Shown here in pieces: positions 21,072 to 40,093 of a stretch of 64,000 nucleotides of DNA. The translations under genes were made by a program, and so were the position numbers. The notes under the pieces are model-generated. The model made no database searches. It was not told the DNA's origin and saw nothing but the letters and a program-made list of their open reading frames with translations. The DNA is from Corynespora cassiicola. Taxonomy: Eukaryota; Ascomycota; Dothideomycetes; Pleosporales; Corynesporascaceae. The DNA lies in the NCBI GenBank assembly GCA_022059125.1, contig JAEUWY010000002.1, positions 620,001 through 684,000 on the forward strand. Direction: 5' to 3'. Numbering within the stretch: position 1 is the stretch's first letter; the number at the start of each line of letters is the position of its first letter.

Positions 21072-24000
21072 CTACCTAGCCTGCACCTGCTGAAACCTCA
21101 ACTCATCCCCCCCAACCGCCGCCCCCAACCTCAACGCCCTCAACCCCGCCGGCACCCCCGGCACCCCCGGCACCGCCGCATCCCCACTCATCTTCCGCCG
21201 CGCACTCGCCGCGCTGAGCGCCAGGCTCGCCCTCGGCGACGCGGGCAGCGGCGTGTGGCTCCTGGGCGGCGGCAGCGGCGGCGCTCGCCGGTTCATCTGC
21301 GCGAGCGCTGCGTTCATGGCGGCAGCGGCCGCCGCCGAGGACGGGTTACCAGGCCCGGGCGCGGACGCAGGCGTCGACGCCCCAGATGTGGATGTCGAGA
21401 CGGGGAGCGGGGGCAGCTGGGCGTCCTTGGGGGTCGCGAAGGGTTGCGCCTGGCGGTGGTTCAGGTGTACGGTTTTCTCTAGAGAGGGGGTGCGGGTGGC
21501 TAGGCGGATGGGCATGGGGGCTGCGAGGGGGGTTGTCGAGGCTCCCGAGTTGCCGCGCACGCGGAGGCCCTGGGAGGAGGATGTGAAGCTTGGGCTCTGG
21601 GTGTGGGCGTGGGTTTGGGAGATGGCGGGCGAGGAGGGGGCTTGCTGGGGGTGCTTGCCGTAGGTTGCCATTAGTTGGGTGAAGTCGTATTCGGCGGGGA
21701 GCTTGGAGAGGCGGCGGATGGTGGACATGTTGTCGTTGATGAAGGTTGACATGCGACGGAGAGCGTTGCTCTGTTGCTGGGTGTCGAATGTGCTGGCCGC
21801 TTGGGTGTTGGCGGCGGCTCGGGCGGTGTGCATGTCCGCGAGGCGTCGGGGTTCTTGGGTCTCGTGGGTTTGCTTGGTGGCATAGTCTTGAGGGCTGGTC
21901 TGGAGTATTTGCTGCGCACTGGCAAAGATCTGAGCAAAATCCACATCTACTCCATTCTGTCCGGGTCTCGGCATGAACCCCGTAGAGAAGCCGTCACTGG
22001 CTGACATTGAAGGAGGTTTGGCCAGGACGAAGAATGAACCGTCGAGGATCTTGCGACGAACATTGTTCCAACGTGTGCGGGCTGGGTTGTTCTCGATCTC
22101 GGGGCGGTAGATGGACTCTTGCGACAGGGAAGAATAGTAAGCCTCAAGCCTGGCTGCGATACGCTCGAGCACTGTGAGGAGATAAGACGCGAGCTTGACT
22201 TGCTTGGAGCCAACAGGCTCATCCATGGATGCAACCATATCGAAAGCGTCCATGCCCTGGCCAGCCTCGTCTCTAATCTGCTCCAAGAAGGTGACATCCA
22301 ACTCGGTGATTGTCTGAGCATATTTGAGGATACCGTTCTCGTGAAACCTTGCAGATTTGCTGTTGTTGGAGACAAACTGCCCAATCTCAGAGATCTCCTT
22401 CATTGCTTTGGTAGCGTCAGGCGACGAATGAGCTCTGGTGATTGTGCCAATGATGTCCGGAAGCCGCACATTTGGGGCAACAGCGTTCGCGAGAGCATAG
22501 GATAACTTGAGATAGATCTCCTGAAGCTTTGCTCCGAACAATGTGGAGAAACCGTTTTGCATCAGCCGCGACTGGAACTGGTAAAACTTCCGGACTCCGC
22601 CAATGTTGAACAGACCACCAGAGAACCATATCTTGGAGTCTTCCAAGATGTTGTTGGCCTCGAAGTAGAGGGTTGTGAGGCTCTCGACTGCATTCCGCAT
22701 ATACTGATACCACATGTCGTAGAGATAGCTCAGCTCAGTCGAGCGGAAATCAGGCTTCTGGGAAAGGTGGCCAATGAAGTACTTGGAGAGAAGGGACGAT
22801 ACTTCGGGATTGGACGAGCTGAAAGGAGTTAGTGTGGAGCATAGTGAGAGCTGGTAACGAATGACATACTGTGCGAGTTCATCGAACGTCTTGGTAGCAT
22901 CCAAGCCAGCACTAGCGGCTACGATAAGAGTACCTCCCGGATGCATGGGAAGGAAGTCGGTCACATCGTACACACCCCCTTTGACACCAATCCACATGCG
23001 TGAGCCTTTTCGGTGGCCGGTGTGAGCTGCAAGTTGCGACATGGGAATGGTAGGTGTAGAATTCGAGATGGAACGAGGTGTCATGAAGATATCTAGGCAA
23101 ATTAGTGATGAACAGCAGGATTTGCTGCGAGTACATACCCAACATGAAGCGTCTCTCCGCAAATGCAGTGGCGAGAAGAGAGTCTGCAGTTGTCTGTGTC
23201 GATGCCTGGTACTTGTAGATTGCCTGCTTGATACCAGACATTACCGTCTCATAGACCGAGACAGACCCGCAAATGTAGAGATAGCCACCCAGTCCACCTT
23301 GGCTCTTGGACAGGACAAGCTCAGATACAAGGCGGCCTTGGTCAACGATAGTTGCATCAATGTAGCGAGGGTCCATTTCTCGCTCCACAAGATCTCGGCT
23401 CATCTGGTCGTAGACCAAGCCATTGCGGTCGCGTGAGAAAGCAGTATGAAGCTCTAGAGTGCCTTGTTGCACTAGCCCTCGCAGCTCAGGTTCGTGAACA
23501 AACTTCTCTCGCGATTGCACGCCCAGGAAAAGAATGTTCCTTCCAATTCCGGACTGGGCGCGTTTCTGCCAGAATCCGCGGAAAGGCGCGATGCCAGAGC
23601 CACCAGCGAACATTGCTACGGGGACGGTGGTGGAAGGCGGAAGCTGGAATTGAATAGGTCGCGACACTCCGATCAACACACCCTGGTCATCAATGGAGTC
23701 AGAAGGATATTCCATGAGGCTGGGAGCCGGATTCAGGAAGCCACTAGAGACACCGTATAGTGGCAGGGCTGGCTGAACGCCCTGGAAAAGAGGGTCGCGC
23801 GCAGTCTCGGTACGGGACACCGTAAGATCGATCATGCTAGGTAGAAGCTCAGGCGAGGCGTTGGAAATGGAGTAAGTACGTGGAACTTCGAGGGCGATAA
23901 GCTTAGGCAACCAAGCGAGATTGAAAAGATCGAAGGCGTGGTCCCAAATTTCCTGTGGCACCTCTGCAATCGCAGTCTGCAACAAATCGCCGATACTTCC

Positions 24001-26152
24001 TTTGACTGGCCACTCGTTGGAAGCGAGGAGCTTCAAAGTCGTATGAGAAGAGGCGCGAAGGGTTTGGTGAATAGACAAGACAAGATCCTTGGTCAGAGGT
24101 GCAAGGTGGCCCCTTTTCAAGACGTCCCTGACTGTAAGACCGGTGCTCGGGTTCTTGGAAATCAGACCCAAGTGCTTTGAAAATCGGGCCCATTCAGAAG
24201 CGGATTCCACAGGGACGATAGTGTCGAGCAGCTCTTCAAGGCCCAAGGCAGCAGCGACTTTTGCTACTTCGTAGTTGGAGTTGACGGGCATGACGGCCAG
24301 CCTATCTCCTGGCTGGAACGTGATGCCGGTGTTGTGAAGGTCAAAAGTCACCATTCCAGTTGATCGGTTCGGGTCATGATCAATGGTATGGCGAGCGAGG
24401 ATGCGGGCTTGGAACCTACATTCCTCAAAGCTACCACGCATCTGATGGGGTTGCACCTTGACCTCACCGCGATAAGGGTCGAGCCGCTCCTTCATGGAGT
24501 CCGACAGAGTACGATGGACTTCTTCCCAGGCACGACCATCCGAATCGCCGGCGCCAGCATTTCCATTGGTTTCGGTACGGCCAGTCTTGGCTACCACCTC
24601 GAGAAAGCCGTAGACCTTGTAGCGATGAGTACCCATGAAGCCTCGCTCTCCAGCATAGGATTCAATAATGCCTTCGAGGACTCCCTCAAGTCGTGGGTCG
24701 CCGCTGGCCTTGACGAATTCGGGTATCCGGTAATGATTCTCCACCGCGGCAATGAAGGCGCGGATGTTGAGAGGGAGCCATCTCCGAAGATGAATGGCCT
24801 CGACACCCAAGAAAGACGCATACTTTGTCCTTCCAATGAATGCATCCATGAGTAGGAACAATGGAAGAGCAAGCCCAGAGAGCGCTGGGACGCGCTTGGA
24901 AAGCGGAGCACTGAACTTGGCATATCGCTGACCCCATTCTACGGGGTTCGCAAATTGCTCGCCTGCGTTCGGGTTCACGCTTATCTTGTGGAAGACGTAG
25001 GCCAGTTGATCAACGAGTGACTTGAGTTGGACCATCTCACGAAGCAGAGTTTCGGGGTCTCTGTTCATGACAGCCTCCTGGCAGCGAGTGATTGTCTCAA
25101 CACCGGTCTGAAAACAGCCGTGCACCTCAGCCATGCAGAGAAGGAACATGGCCTCGCCGCGGTCGTTGAATACCTGGGGAGTTAGCATCGCTCAAATATA
25201 GCAAAACTGATTACAACTTACAGGCCATCTCAGGTCCATGTTCTCCGTCCGCGCAACGTAGGGCTGAACACTAGTTGGGTCGCGAAGCTTGTAGTTGTAG
25301 ATCGAGACATCGAACTGGGTCAAATGGGGCAGAGCTCGGCCCATGCGCGTGCAAACCTGCCTCAAAGGAATCGCGATGTTTCTTGGAATTCCTTTGGTCT
25401 CCTCCTCTTCGTCGTCGTCTCCGTGGATATTCTTGAAAGCACTTGCTGGGGCGGCGACGTTCACACCTTCATTGCCATCGTTGTTCTCTTCATACCTGTA
25501 CACACTCGCAAGTATGCCAAGGCATACGGTAGCCGCCCAAAGAGCCCGTTCGGGAATAACGTCAGGTGTACCGTATACGAGTGGGAGGGAGAGTATTGAA
25601 TTTCGAACGTTTCCGCGGGCGACCACGCCAGGCATACGTTCACACAAGTCGGACCAAATTCTCCCAGCTGACCCTCGAAGAGCAACAGGGGAATCAGATG
25701 GGTCGGGCGGCAAGAAGCCATATGATGATGATAGATAGCCATCCTTCCAGCCAGTTTGTGGACCAATGTCTTCAGCTCGCATCAGCACACGGCGTGCAGG
25801 TGCACCGAGGGCTATTGCGAGGACATCGTCGTCGGGAGGCTGGAGGCTGTCGGCATTCTTCATCCCATGTGTGACTTGCCGGGCTGGAGCCTCAGGCATG
25901 AGCATCTCGTTGAGAGCCTTGCGTTCTTTTTCATAGAGAACACCGGCATCTTCGGAGCCCTACCAGATGTTAGATACTGGTGCTAATTTTGAGTGTAGTT
26001 CCGAGGCTCACATCTGAATACACCGTTCTTGCTCCCGAATTCGGTTGGAAAGCAGCAAATGCACAACCTCGTGGTCCCATGCGGCCAGCCGGGCAATTTC
26101 CTCCAGCGGCCGAGCCGCTTTGTCCGCTGACAGGACAAGCTCGAACGGACAT
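21072..26152 (-). CDS. IDO/PrnB-like heme domain - FAD/NADPH reductase - cytochrome b5 fusion
   Basis: Five exons on the minus strand: 26152-26012, 25959-25222, 25173-23139, 23092-22870 and 22818-21072, giving 1627 residues; every junction keeps frame. Residues about 60-500 resemble indoleamine 2,3-dioxygenase/PrnB-type heme proteins, with ENMDLRWPV and GFMGTH476RYKVYGF, where H476 sits where IDO has its proximal heme His. Residues about 530-960 match the FAD/NADPH half of P450 reductase: RTYS (725-728), GVSSGF (767), GGSGIAPFRGF (817-827), AFSRD and ICGS. No FMN/flavodoxin domain is seen. Residues 985-1060 are a cytochrome b5 domain with H1022-PGG and H1046, spaced 24 residues as in b5. The last 580 residues are helical, then disordered, and unrecognised. 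Inference: NADPH electrons pass through FAD to b5 and the heme domain. Its substrate is unknown. The start is less certain than the rest. Confidence 0.85.
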
Positions 26153-30519: not shown

Positions 30520-31670
30520 GTCAATTGAGCTGCAGAATTCACCCAATGGAGGTAATCGATGGGATAACCCCTTTCACTAAGTCTTAGTCAGAGCAGGTAG
30601 AAACGATACCAGTCGCATGAGCTAATTTACATCAGGTTGAAGATATTGTCAAAGATCACAGCAATTGATGATCTTTGAGAGAAGCCAATGCTTTACCAGA
30701 TTCATTGGCCAGGTCCTTTGGATAGCTTTGGGGTATCGTTCGTGATAGTGTTTTCTGTTGAGAGTGACTCAACAGATGATCATGCGACATATAAAGTTCG
30801 TAGAATAATCGTATAAAGAAAGACTAATTCAGTAGTTGGACTTGAACCGATGAAAAGCAACTTGTTTCTGAGAACGTGGCATTGATGTAGCATCCAAAAA
30901 AGTGAAAAGGTAGATGTAAGAGAGAAGGAAGCGCTTAGAACTCAGTTACAGATCGGTCTTTCGATTGTTGAGCAGAGATGGAAACTATCCTATTAAAACA
31001 CATACAATCATCACTGTGGGGTATGCGGATACCAACTCAATAACCCTGTCTCGGACCGGTGACCTTCAGTGTACTATCGCCCGTGTCTCCCTAGATTATG
31101 GATAACTGCAGCTGTACGAGAACGGGCATCTACCAATCACAATTTTGAGATAATAATACTCTGTTCTCTGTGTCCATGCGACATGTTGAGGTAAAGACGG
31201 CCCAAATTGCGCTCTAAATAGTCTGGTTGTACAAAGCGCATACGTCTAGCGTTTCAAAAGTTAGCTATTACAGCTTTCTTGGTTGAACATTGGTGGTCCA
31301 TGATTGAAGCTTAGTGTGCCTTGTCCCGTGGATCCCACTTGGTCGTGGGGTCAACGTTTTGTTCGTTGAGCCGCACATGAACTTCCTCAAAAGGACACTG
31401 AAGGATTCTAGACCCTGAAATCCCTTGTTTTGTGATTAGAAATATTTCCATCGATGATTACGAAAAAGTAGATAAAGCTTTTGGGAGAGATTGGAGCTGA
31501 AGAATATGTCGTGCAACACGAGATCATTATTAGAGTCCAATCAACATCCAACTACCCCGCCTTCTCTTACGTGTAACGTCGAGCAGGTAACAAGATTCGC
31601 GATGGTGTTTTTGACAATTTGATTCTCGTCGATCGGATACCATCGTTCACAGATTTCTATAGACGTCAAC
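30520..31670. other. Divergent intergenic region
   Basis: This lies between the RS-rich protein (-) and the deaminase gene (+). No coding exon is supported apart from the possible 5' exon of the RS-rich gene. It probably contains two promoters. Confidence 0.5.
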
Positions 31671-33851
31671 ATGAATGCACTGCTGCGACTTGCAGAAAAT
31701 ACTTATCTTTTGAGGGATCAGAAAGGGGAATGTGTTGTTCCACCACGGCGGAACGACATGGAAGACAGCGACAAAGGTGCTGCGAACAACGGCAGAGTTT
31801 TAAGTATGAGACAAGAACTCGACTTGGTGAGCTGCTTGACATATCTTTCCGCATACAGTACCCATTCAGATAGAGTCATGGCTTTGTGTGTGGAAGAAAA
31901 AGCAGATCATGAAGGCTTGGTAGTGTTCGTTGCTTCTAACACCAGTCCTGATGAAAAGCTCGAGAAGGGGCTAAAAAGGATCACAGACGTACTAGAGAAG
32001 CAGACTGAGATTACTTCAGACAGTTGCCTAGATTTTTTGCTTTACCATGTCCTGGAGCATGGCCGAGAGCGATTGAATGTACGATTGGGATCGGTCAAGC
32101 CGCCAAGTGCTGGAAGCGAAATGAAGAAGTACGAGAAAACTACTTCAGCAAGACTTCAGAAAGCTCTGGAATGCGCCCAAAAGTCAGACCGCAACTTCAA
32201 AGTCAACCATCCGGATTTGTTTAGGCTGTCAACCAAGTTCATGGAGCTCACCGAGATCGTTCTCGCCTCCCCAACTGCCAGCTCAGTCTCCGATGCTCTG
32301 AAACATATCTTGCACATCACAAATGACATAAATGTTACATACAGAGAGACAATTAGCCAAAGATTGGACAGAATTCCTACCAATGTGATGGATCCTAGTA
32401 CAAAAGAGAGCATGAAATTACGTCTTGAGCAATTAGCTCTGTACGTGCCAGCCGCAAGCAAACTGCTGAGATTTGCGGCGAAATCGACTACACGTTCTCT
32501 GTTCCGCACTATTGAGGTCCGACAAGTAGTGATTGGTACGGGGGATTTGATGACCGTTTTTGATGGCCCTATTTGTGGGCATGCAACTGGATTACTCGAG
32601 AGTTACCTCAACGGACCCAAGCCTGCCAGAGGAGCTAACCTTGCTGATGCAATGAACAAGCTTCGTCAGAAACAAAAGAAGAACCTCTCTATCTTGCAGA
32701 AAGAGATTCGAGACGCAGTGGTTGGCAATACGCGGGACGGTCGCTACAAAGTGCACGCAGAAATCCAGCTTCTCGTAGCTTGCGAGAGCAATCCGAAATC
32801 GGCGTATCCGCCCCGGGTGTTCAAGTCAAGTAAACACGCCTGTTATCTTTGTGACTTTTTCATAAAGAAGCATGGGAAATACTATATCCAAAAAACTCAT
32901 GGGAAATTGTACAATCTCTGGATGTTTCCCGATGTTCATGACTGTGAATGGGGGCGTAAGAGGAAAAAGCAATGGAGTTCTATGATTGACGAAATCAATG
33001 CGGGGGTGGAGAGCTTATTGCTGGAAAAAATTAGAAACCCGCTAGTATTGAAAAACCCTAGAGAGAGCTCAATCTTCTCGCTTGACCCTTCAGTATATCA
33101 TCCTACTGGCGTTCAGCAGGAAGAGACGGCAGTTGCCGACGAGGCTGTGGAAGAACGGGAAGATCATCCTCAAGATGAACCAGTGGGGCAGACAGCGCAC
33201 CAGAACACGTCACCAGCGGTCGTTACCTCGAGCGAACTTTTGGGACATGCGAAAACATCCCAATCGATGATAGCACTTCAGGAGCCCGTGAAGGACGAAG
33301 CGGTAGCTGAAGAGCCCATCAAAGACACTGTACCTATCGCCTTAATGCGCCAGGGAACACCTCAGATGACGCCCCTGACAGCTCGATCTATTCAGTCACT
33401 CGACCATAACCACGCTGCGACCAAAGAAGAAAAGCCAGCAAAGAGCCGCACAAAAAGCTTGCTCTCATCACCAGCAGCGGTGAAACCTACTATTGTCAAT
33501 CTCACGCCCGGGCGTTCAAAATTCCACGTCTTCCAAGCCTCATCAAAATGTATCCGATATCACACTCCCAAGATACACATTGAACTATCACATGAAGAAG
33601 CACGACACGTGGCATCGCAGAGCTCACCCAGTAGATGTGCTGAGCCATTGTTGGACATCCGCACCGAAGTGACCTGGTTAAACCTTTATCAGAGTGCCGC
33701 TTTCTCGGATGTTCCCGCGGGGAATATTGTAGATCTCAAGTCGAAAAGAGTGTGGGAAGTTGCGGAAGGTGTCTTGTTCACAGATTATGGCTTGCTGCTC
33801 CGGAAAGGGTCGGAAACTGTGCGCCTGAAAGCATCGTACGTCGAGAAGTGA
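31671..33851 (+). CDS. OTT_1508-type nucleic acid deaminase-like protein
   Basis: A single exon of 726 residues. The core near residues 355-420 carries VH362-A-E364IQLL followed by C391-YL-C394DFF and HGKLYNLWMFPD. H-A-E plus C-x-x-C is the zinc and catalytic set of the cytidine-deaminase fold. The surrounding sequence fits the fungal OTT_1508 deaminase family. The first 340 residues are helical with no recognised domain. Residues 470-610 are a charged linker, and the last 110 residues form a possible beta-rich domain. Relatives in the superfamily deaminate bases in nucleic acids or free nucleotides; the substrate of this fungal branch is unknown. There is no signal peptide, so an intracellular role is expected. 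No immunity partner is seen next to it. All four expected zinc or catalytic residues are present. Confidence 0.8.
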   Translation: MNALLRLAENTYLLRDQKGECVVPPRRNDMEDSDKGAANNGRVLSMRQELDLVSCLTYLSAYSTHSDRVMALCVEEKADHEGLVVFVASNTSPDEKLEKGLKRITDVLEKQTEITSDSCLDFLLYHVLEHGRERLNVRLGSVKPPSAGSEMKKYEKTTSARLQKALECAQKSDRNFKVNHPDLFRLSTKFMELTEIVLASPTASSVSDALKHILHITNDINVTYRETISQRLDRIPTNVMDPSTKESMKLRLEQLALYVPAASKLLRFAAKSTTRSLFRTIEVRQVVIGTGDLMTVFDGPICGHATGLLESYLNGPKPARGANLADAMNKLRQKQKKNLSILQKEIRDAVVGNTRDGRYKVHAEIQLLVACESNPKSAYPPRVFKSSKHACYLCDFFIKKHGKYYIQKTHGKLYNLWMFPDVHDCEWGRKRKKQWSSMIDEINAGVESLLLEKIRNPLVLKNPRESSIFSLDPSVYHPTGVQQEETAVADEAVEEREDHPQDEPVGQTAHQNTSPAVVTSSELLGHAKTSQSMIALQEPVKDEAVAEEPIKDTVPIALMRQGTPQMTPLTARSIQSLDHNHAATKEEKPAKSRTKSLLSSPAAVKPTIVNLTPGRSKFHVFQASSKCIRYHTPKIHIELSHEEARHVASQSSPSRCAEPLLDIRTEVTWLNLYQSAAFSDVPAGNIVDLKSKRVWEVAEGVLFTDYGLLLRKGSETVRLKASYVEK

Positions 33852-37530: not shown

Positions 37531-38170
37531 AATGTGGGATCAGGCGCTAGAAGTGCGCGGGTATTCGCCAGTTAGGACATGGTGGACAGCGCCTATTTCT
37601 TTCTGCTCATGCATGTATACTTACGATTTCGGAGGGTGAGAACAAGTCACAGGGTGGCTGTACTATACAAAATCAGGCCGGCGTTTTCTAGGGAGGTGCA
37701 AGGTTACCCCGCAACCTCCAACGATCTACATTGCAGATGCTCTCGCTTTCCGCCGTTGTTTACTCCGTCTGACTATGTGCTGTGGCTGTTCAAGGATAGG
37801 TTCTCCGTATTTGCGTTGTTTAAATGCCCGATGTGGATCTGACCAGGGCTCGCGTACGGATGATCTACGGCCTGCAGCCTTGCCGAACCGTATACGGTGC
37901 TGTATACGTTGCTATACGATACAATACGCGTATATAAACAACCTTGAACATGGTGTGCCGCGTCATTTTTTTTATCAAATACATTTGCGTTCCTTGCATT
38001 CTACATTACAGACTTTCATCATGACCTCACTCGTACTTGCCAAATCATAGATGTTTTCATATTTAACTGCGAGTGACCAAGGCCTGCAAAATGGCCTTCC
38101 GCAACACCTTTGGCACGTCGCAGAGACGTATCTGGGTCCTCTTTACCCGAGCACCGAACTTTTGAATGCA
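37531..38170. other. Intergenic with TATA box and upstream ORF
   Basis: This contains the 3' end of Pta1 and the promoter of the next gene. TATATAAA is at 37931-37938. A ten-codon upstream ORF occupies 38021-38050, and its TAG is directly followed by an ATG at 38051 that is in frame with the main protein. Confidence 0.55.
37931..37938 (+). promoter_or_regulatory. TATA box
   Basis: TATATAAA is 120 bp upstream of the first in-frame ATG and 240 bp upstream of the preferred start of the secreted propeller protein. The surrounding DNA has a TA-rich then pyrimidine-rich layout typical of a strong regulated fungal promoter. Confidence 0.5.
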
Positions 38171-40093
38171 ATGTCGGCCAAGAATATTTTTTCCAACATT
38201 GCACTCCTCTCTCTGTTGGGGGCCAATGGTGTGGCACAACCTGCACCATTCGTTCCGCCAGGGAGTCTTCCCCCACCTCCTGAACCAGAACCGATCGAGA
38301 TTAGCAGGGTCCCTCTTCCCCCCACAGCACCCAAATATAATCAAGGCTCCTGCAGCATTGAAGTTAATCCTCAAAGAACCGGATGCATTCCAGTGGGGGG
38401 CATGCTCCAGTCAGGAGGCTTCTTGCCCGACAACAATCATATCACTGCTCACGTCAATTTCACTGGGGCTCCAGCTGCGCCTGATCCTGCCAGTATCTAC
38501 GATGGCGAACAATTGATCATAATCAAAGTCGATGGAACCAACTTCTCCTCGGGGAGCGCCTGGAAGTGCCTCACTTGTGGAGTCTCAAAAGAGAACGCTG
38601 TTGGTCGGCAACCTAATTTGGACTACCCTCAGGCGTTCCACGACGGGAAGAAAATTCTCGCTGGCGCAAACGTCGTAGACTGCGGAGATCTTGATCTCGC
38701 CAGCGATGAATGTACAGCTGATAAAATTCACATCTATCCCATCCGCTGGAACAAGACCCCCGATGGCTCGGGTGTTGGGGGCGCAGTTCGCGAATTACGA
38801 TTGCACCCGGATAACGTGCATCTGGCATTCAGTTCTTTTGGTCTCACAGAAGGCCAGCTCACTCAGTACAGCTACTTTTCCAGGTTGGAGTTTAACCCCT
38901 CTCCTAAGACTGGTGAACCTTTAGCTCCGCGTTACGATCTCGTCAACGTTACCATTCTACACTCTGATGTCCAGGATCAGATAGACATAAGTGTAAAAGG
39001 CAGTGAACTCCACATCAATCGGAACTTTTCTTCCATCGGCGAGATTCGCGGTTTTAGTGGCAGCGGCAACGAAATTACCTTTGTCGGATACCCCACCGAA
39101 TCTTCGAATATTGACGTATACGCCGTCGACTTAACTACTGGTGCGATGCGTCGACTCACTGCACATCCGGAGTACTGCGACCCTGTCGATATATCCCCTG
39201 ACGATCAATGGCACGTGGCGATGGATACCAGAGGCAGTGATAGACAAATGTTCATGGCTGGCATGCGATACATCCCACCTATTACCGACCTGATTAGCTC
39301 TTCAGTCACATCCTCGACTCGTAACAACGGACCTCGTCGATTCTTTCAGCCATACTTGATCGATTACTATGGCGACCGTGGATCCTATTTCGGCCAGCAA
39401 GTAAATGCAGCGGGCGATGGCAGTCCTGGAAGTATCAATGACCCCAACTGGAACGGAAGAGCTGACCCCCGTTGGTCCTTTGACGGCAACAAAATCGTAT
39501 ACTGGCAGGCCCTTGTCGTGTCACCTTCCTGCGGCGGACCAAATCCCCTCCCTTGTCCCAACTCCACTGAACCAGGTGGTGCCACTGAACGAATCTTCAT
39601 CGCCCATCTTACCTCCCGGAAGCCCCAAGAGTACAAAGTGGTCCCGCCCCGATCCGACGAGGTTCCTTGGGCCACTAAGTACACTGCTGGTGATCCTATG
39701 CCGCAGCGCGCCTATCCCCGACAGGGTGTCTACACATTACGTGGTCTCTTCTCAGGAACCGCGAACGTGACCATCACCGAGAATGCAAACAAGACATTCA
39801 TTGAGTCTGTTTCTGTATCTTATTTCAACTACTCGGACGTTTCCTCCAGCGTGCTTAATGGCTGGGAGAATATAACAGCGGAGAGGCCATCTCCTACTCT
39901 TCCCCGCTTACACTGGTTTTCCGATCTCGTCCAAACAGACCCGAAGAACGGCAGCATAGTATCGACGAAGAAGACTAGCGAAGACGGCTTCCACCTCCAG
40001 ATTGACATCCTGGTCAACTGGTTGGAGGCGAATGGGACGCTAGAAACCACAATTGGGGGCCGGACATACAAACAGCCCCAGAACGGAACCTAG
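38171..40093 (+). CDS. Secreted TolB-like beta-propeller protein, saponin-hydrolase-like
   Basis: A single exon of 640 residues from ATG 38171, chosen because it opens a signal peptide (NIFSNIALLSLLGANGVAQ). The in-frame ATG at 38051 would place 40 residues in front of it. Propeller-like strands repeat through the chain (HPDNVHLAFSSFG, GNEITFVGYPTESSNIDVYA, SPDDQWHVAMDTRGSDRQM, PRWSFDGNKIVYWQ). Many Cys and N-glycosylation sequons are present, fitting an extracellular enzyme. The overall sequence (GGMLQSGGFLPDNNHITAHV, GAPAAPDPASIYDG, WKCLTCGV) resembles fungal proteins annotated as saponin hydrolase, which remove sugars from plant saponins. The exact substrate is not provable here. A tandem TATA box and upstream ORF suggest regulated expression. 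Confidence 0.75.
   Translation: MSAKNIFSNIALLSLLGANGVAQPAPFVPPGSLPPPPEPEPIEISRVPLPPTAPKYNQGSCSIEVNPQRTGCIPVGGMLQSGGFLPDNNHITAHVNFTGAPAAPDPASIYDGEQLIIIKVDGTNFSSGSAWKCLTCGVSKENAVGRQPNLDYPQAFHDGKKILAGANVVDCGDLDLASDECTADKIHIYPIRWNKTPDGSGVGGAVRELRLHPDNVHLAFSSFGLTEGQLTQYSYFSRLEFNPSPKTGEPLAPRYDLVNVTILHSDVQDQIDISVKGSELHINRNFSSIGEIRGFSGSGNEITFVGYPTESSNIDVYAVDLTTGAMRRLTAHPEYCDPVDISPDDQWHVAMDTRGSDRQMFMAGMRYIPPITDLISSSVTSSTRNNGPRRFFQPYLIDYYGDRGSYFGQQVNAAGDGSPGSINDPNWNGRADPRWSFDGNKIVYWQALVVSPSCGGPNPLPCPNSTEPGGATERIFIAHLTSRKPQEYKVVPPRSDEVPWATKYTAGDPMPQRAYPRQGVYTLRGLFSGTANVTITENANKTFIESVSVSYFNYSDVSSSVLNGWENITAERPSPTLPRLHWFSDLVQTDPKNGSIVSTKKTSEDGFHLQIDILVNWLEANGTLETTIGGRTYKQPQNGT

Follow-up and report, generated by a model that had tools for sequence, protein, structure and literature searches.

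Indoleamine 2,3-dioxygenase (IDO) is a lone domain. In P450 BM3/P450foxy and in nitric oxide synthase (NOS), which are self-sufficient heme oxygenases, a single polypeptide carries the oxygenase on its N-terminal side and the NADPH reductase behind it; the heme is thiolate-ligated and the relay is FAD-FMN. A further group, comprising Ncb5or, nitrate reductase and flavohemoglobin, joins an FNR-type flavin module to cytochrome b5 or to another heme domain. According to excerpts from PMC13142367, assays of IDO1 generally use ascorbate and methylene blue, its cellular reductant is unclear, and NADPH-cytochrome P450 reductase (CPR) can support it in vitro whether b5 is present or not; b5 has also been put forward as the IDO reductant (PMC4191572, excerpt). 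The locus described here joins an IDO-type domain to a reductase and a b5 domain.

Gene model and domain content

The window analysed is a stretch of 64,000 nucleotides from the 44-Mb genome of Corynespora cassiicola. On its minus strand, a fusion gene starts at an ATG (26152) and ends at a stop (21074..21072); after splicing of four GT-AG introns of 46-52 bases each, it reads as a single frame of 1,627 aa, as a previous, sequence-only reading had claimed. The nearest public protein, P0001 (from Corynespora cassiicola Philippines, annotated as hypothetical), is a gene model 99% identical to the fusion protein over its whole length. The features of the gene are:

21072..26152, minus strand: whole coding region with stop, 5 exons, 1,627 aa (from ORFs and the 99% match to P0001)
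26152-26012, 25959-25222, 25173-23139, 23092-22870, 22818-21072, minus strand: exons
26054..26137, minus strand: N-terminal Cys-Pro motifs (CPV, CP, GPRGC), residues 6-33
24553..25848, minus strand: IDO-type heme domain, residues ~85-500
24625..24627, minus strand: H476, candidate proximal heme ligand, histidine in 112 of 112 aligned family rows
23085..24417, minus strand: FAD/NADPH reductase of CPR/CysJ type, without a flavodoxin (FMN) domain, residues 546-974, intron 3 inside
22764..23039, minus strand: cytochrome b5 domain, residues 990-1064, intron 4 inside
21996..22718, minus strand: conserved helical C-terminal domain, residues ~1080-1320, helices in model m5c58d26b38cb
21075..21968, minus strand: weakly conserved tail, residues ~1330-1627

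All the motifs quoted in the earlier reading were found [THRYKVYGF (H476), RTYS (725), GGSGIAPFRGF (817), ICGS (927) and HPGG (H1022)], and the second b5 histidine, H1046, whose codon is split by intron 4, lies exactly 24 residues past H1022, as claimed. Residues 1065-1627 and the Cys-Pro motifs were absent from that reading. The joint between the IDO and reductase modules falls inside an unbroken 759-aa ORF (22912..25191). An intron of 46 bases crosses the joint of reductase and b5 in the window gene. The paralogue at G000:C6:3358575-3363343 of the same genome, however, encodes the end of the reductase together with b5 and the C-terminal domain in one 702-aa open frame (L020). Since both joints lie within unbroken frames, here or in the paralogue, and the layout recurs across phyla, a chance fusion of two genes was rejected. 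The modules are covalently joined at the DNA level.

The Pfam search suggested earlier returned four domains above cut-off: IDO (residues 123-358, 5.9e-15; 55.4 bits versus a curated cut-off of 26, covering only positions 7-211 of the 412 in the profile), FAD_binding_1 (PF00667, residues 546-746, 3.3e-12; 46.9 bits, cut-off 32.3), NAD_binding_1 (PF00175, residues 814-877, 3.7e-6; 28 bits, cut-off 22) and Cyt-b5 (residues 990-1064, 6e-15). The N-terminal part had been described as an IDO/PrnB-like heme domain, and only the IDO half of that description stood, backed by profile and fold. PrnB and IDO share membership of the heme-dependent aromatic oxygenase superfamily, according to an excerpt of PMC11791213. 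The PrnB profile, PF08933, had no match in the fusion protein at E<=1, and kinship with PrnB was therefore not supported. A PF08933 scan of the genome was also without matches, the search controls being equally silent.

The matches to PF00667 and PF00175, together with the conserved RTYS, bore out the NADPH/FAD reductase module proposed before. RTYS, F974, G818-S819-G820 and C928-G929-S930 occur in all 112 rows of the family alignment, and G817 in 111. No flavodoxin (FMN-binding) domain was matched by Pfam in the fusion protein at E<=1, and only ~45 residues separate the heme domain from residue 546. The b5 assignment was upheld by the Cyt-b5 match, by HPGG (111 of 112 rows, one gap) and the second axial histidine (H1046, 112 of 112), and by the b5 fold recovered when the predicted b5 model was submitted to a fold search.

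In the PDB, the reductase profile finds CPR, CysJ and NOS reductase. The match to the last of these, the automatic naming of some family members as nitric-oxide synthase or nitrate reductase (two of each among the 120 matches listed), and a plan of heme plus NADPH/FAD reductase like that of flavohemoglobin and NOS would all suit an enzyme acting on nitrogen oxides, be it an NO dioxygenase, a nitrite reductase or an NO-forming enzyme. The source of fungal NO is itself described as unsettled in an excerpt of PMC10889981. However, the NOS match is confined to the shared reductase and the NOS oxygenase domain had no Pfam match in the fusion protein at E<=1, the heme domain being that of IDO; a NOS identity was rejected on this ground, and we consider action on nitrogen oxides very improbable.

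The IDO-type heme domain and its pocket

The IDO heme fold of the N-terminal part, set beforehand as a refutation test, was recovered by structure prediction and comparison of the model with Foldseek and VIA, and the predicted model supports an IDO-type fold for the heme domain. H476 aligns with the proximal histidine of a canonical IDO from the same genome and sits in helix 402-419 of the modelled fragment; in IDO1 the proximal heme ligand is H346. The analysis shows the domain content, the predicted heme and b5 folds and the conserved cofactor residues, in addition to the covalent joints.

The pocket was examined in an alignment of 26 rows (23 family members, human IDO1 and two IDO loci of the genome), taking R231, with F226/F227, to be the substrate-binding residues of IDO1. 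The R231 column was picked on this alignment and then read in the 112 family rows, where it corresponds to V371 of the window protein and holds arginine in 0 of 112, in an alignment of ~19% identity that makes this placement uncertain. The F226 column contains N, Q, H or L among the 112 rows and the F227 column F or Y. In the 23 aligned members, M or C occupies the S167 column, while F163, F227 (F/Y) and S263 are retained. Around the substrate helix of IDO the fusion protein has a different sequence, and the family has a conserved stretch of its own, F-S-A-P-L-S-x-R-x-P-A-x-S-G, with R387 in 111 of the 112 rows. R376 is found in 102 of them, and both arginines are close in sequence to the pocket segment. 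Comparison by hhalign of the long family alignment with one canonical IDO exon aligned the expected stretch, with a probability of 0.6% and an E of 0.11. The lack of arginine at the R231 column means that substrate binding must at least differ from that of IDO. Because ~19% identity lets the alignment slip and the hhalign comparison is weak, we claim from these alignments an apparently rebuilt IDO substrate site and nothing beyond it. R376 or R387 could stand in for R231, which would readmit an amino-acid substrate.

These two arginines, the IDO fold with its proximal histidine and the in vitro support of IDO1 by CPR would also be compatible with an ordinary tryptophan/indoleamine 2,3-dioxygenase carrying out the classic ring opening, its reductase and b5 merely keeping the heme ferrous. 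We regard this explanation as unlikely, given that the residues aligned with R231, F226 and S167 are not those of IDO (F227, by contrast, is matched by F/Y), that the surroundings of the substrate helix are replaced and that the genome contains four other IDO-family loci: C12:2018561, C2:1619110, C1:2396458 (with several in-frame stops) and C12:2408291. Genome searches gave no reductase or b5 match alongside any of the four. Their existence suggests that tryptophan breakdown probably proceeds independently of the fusion protein, whose substrate would probably be other than free L-tryptophan.

A kynurenine gene cluster was rejected for the window, where, among the 15 ORF pieces scanned, the matches were Rax2, PEX6, the RNA acetyltransferase NAT10, alpha/beta-hydrolases and an OTT_1508-like deaminase domain, and 8 pieces gave no Pfam match. 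The ORF with the OTT_1508-like deaminase domain (window 31623-33848, 3e-18) is otherwise unnamed, and a 680-aa ORF at 38051-40090, without a Pfam match, looks secreted by eye.

Termini, distribution and history of the family

Residues ~1080-1320 are conserved across the family and are helical in model m5c58d26b38cb, with pLDDT mostly >85. This domain had no Pfam match, and no PDB sequence was matched at an E lower than 1.3; a fold search with the model of b5 plus C-terminal domain returned a list filled by b5, and the 42 matches of a search for relatives were taken, by identity and Pfam, as fragments or incomplete models of this fusion itself. From residue 1301 onward, mean column identity falls to 0.12-0.37 in blocks. 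At the other end, within the first 140 residues, CPV is present in 60 and GPRGC in 80 of the 112 rows; a number of the gene models may begin too far downstream. Cys-Pro motifs are heme-regulatory in other proteins, and the CPV/CP/GPRGC motifs are possibly heme-regulatory or metal-binding here. Such motifs, the conserved helical domain and the long tail could fit a heme-based sensor or regulator, in which an IDO-type heme would bind O2, CO or NO, the redox chain would set its state and the C-terminal domain and tail would relay the signal. Strong conservation of a complete NADPH/FAD/b5 chain would nevertheless be costly for a sensor, and we hold this role to be improbable.

Of 344 homologues found, 120 matches were listed, and all four Pfam domains were present in 107 of these; 10 were without IDO, 2 without NAD_binding_1 and 1 without Cyt-b5, several of them being partial models or fragments. 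When five diverse members were rescanned, all contained IDO, FAD_binding_1, NAD_binding_1 and Cyt-b5, although FAD_binding_1 of P0033 fell below the curated cut-off. The same layout occurs in Ascomycota, Basidiomycota and a chytrid, Gaertneriomyces semiglobifer, named as a source among the matches listed; the other sources named there include Dothideomycetes, Eurotiomycetes, Leotiomycetes, Sordariomycetes, Pezizomycetes and Agaricomycetes. A layout shared from Ascomycota through Basidiomycota to a chytrid makes the fusion look both selected and old. Two narrow patterns run on bacterial and archaeal contigs gave 47 matches, none confirmed as a relative. In a search for stand-alone relatives of the IDO module, the best 120 of 127 matches were judged, by identity and Pfam, to be parts or incomplete models of the fusion; this search was word-based, and canonical IDOs did not come up among the matches listed.

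In a quick tree of 34 members selected from the 112, a clade of 13 ascomycete sequences separates with an SH-aLRT of 100. Lentithecium, Amniculicola and Periconia were found in both parts of the tree, and, judged by identity, so were Paraphoma, Lindgomyces, Leptodontidium and the present genome. The paralogue at G000:C6:3358575-3363343 shares the layout of the window gene, to which its pieces are 50-58% identical, and resembles most closely the members of the other ascomycete clade. The tree fits an old gene duplicated in Ascomycota, with gene transfer as an alternative because the root is the midpoint of the drawing and the chytrid row is long.

In databases, family members seem to have been named after one or another of their modules, as sulfite reductase flavoprotein, nitrate reductase, nitric-oxide synthase or indoleamine dioxygenase; among the 120 matches listed, about 30 are called sulfite reductase subunits. 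Being widespread in sequence databases, these proteins form an uncharacterised but common fungal family, not a rarity.

Proposed electron route and comparison with known systems

We consider it likely that the product of this gene is a heme oxygenase of the IDO fold, driven by NADPH and self-sufficient, with electrons running from FAD through b5 to the IDO-type heme. NADPH would reduce the FAD of the reductase module, which would pass single electrons to the b5 heme, b5 taking the place of the absent FMN domain; b5 would then reduce the His-ligated IDO-type heme, and this would bind O2 and oxidise a substrate in the IDO-type pocket. In this scheme we infer the occupancy by heme and FAD, the direction of electron flow, the O2 chemistry and the class of substrate. 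A self-sufficient heme enzyme had been proposed by the sequence-only reading, of which the IDO-type fold, the NADPH/FAD and b5 modules and the single chain were retained and the kinship with PrnB was dropped. Its suggestion for the substrate was that the enzyme may act on an indole, a pyrrole or another aromatic compound.

That reading also knew of no characterised enzyme with this layout. Nothing recognisable as such emerged from a search of open-licence papers, mainly titles and abstract starts, though the family itself is widespread in sequence databases. In two fungal NO papers (PMC10889981, PMC10607626) the words indoleamine and cytochrome b5 are absent, and the NOS-related passages of PMC4160249, PMC4778047 and PMC4948021 contain no description of the fusion. 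The architecture is confirmed as real and conserved, and is without description in the literature searched.

A natural fusion of an IDO fold with a CPR-type reductase and b5 provides evolutionary evidence for a workable electron route and offers a single protein in which the IDO electron route could be measured. It points to a widely conserved fungal reaction, and its recognition would correct the misleading database names of sulfite reductase, nitrate reductase and nitric-oxide synthase.

Compared with IDO (human IDO1/IDO2 and fungal IDO alpha, beta and gamma), the fusion differs at the R231, F226 and S167 positions and adds a reductase, a b5 and a helical domain to the IDO-type domain. From PrnB it is set apart by the lack of a match to the PrnB profile. 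FAD and NADP(H) domains are shared with CPR, CysJ and NOS reductase, but here no FMN-binding flavodoxin domain was matched and the reductase is followed by b5. Ncb5or, nitrate reductase and flavohemoglobin have no IDO-type oxygenase, and their domain order and reductase type are different. With P450 BM3/P450foxy and NOS it has in common an oxygenase N-terminal to an NADPH reductase in a single chain; unlike theirs, its heme domain has the IDO fold and a conserved histidine, and its relay would be FAD-b5. We tentatively suggest, with slightly less conviction than doubt, that self-sufficient heme oxygenases may have a third plan, represented by this fusion, in addition to those of NOS and the P450-reductase fusions. 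It would be a His-ligated mono- or dioxygenase of the IDO fold, fed by FAD and b5 in one chain and acting on a new substrate, that has been retained from a chytrid to Dikarya and has undergone duplication in Ascomycota.
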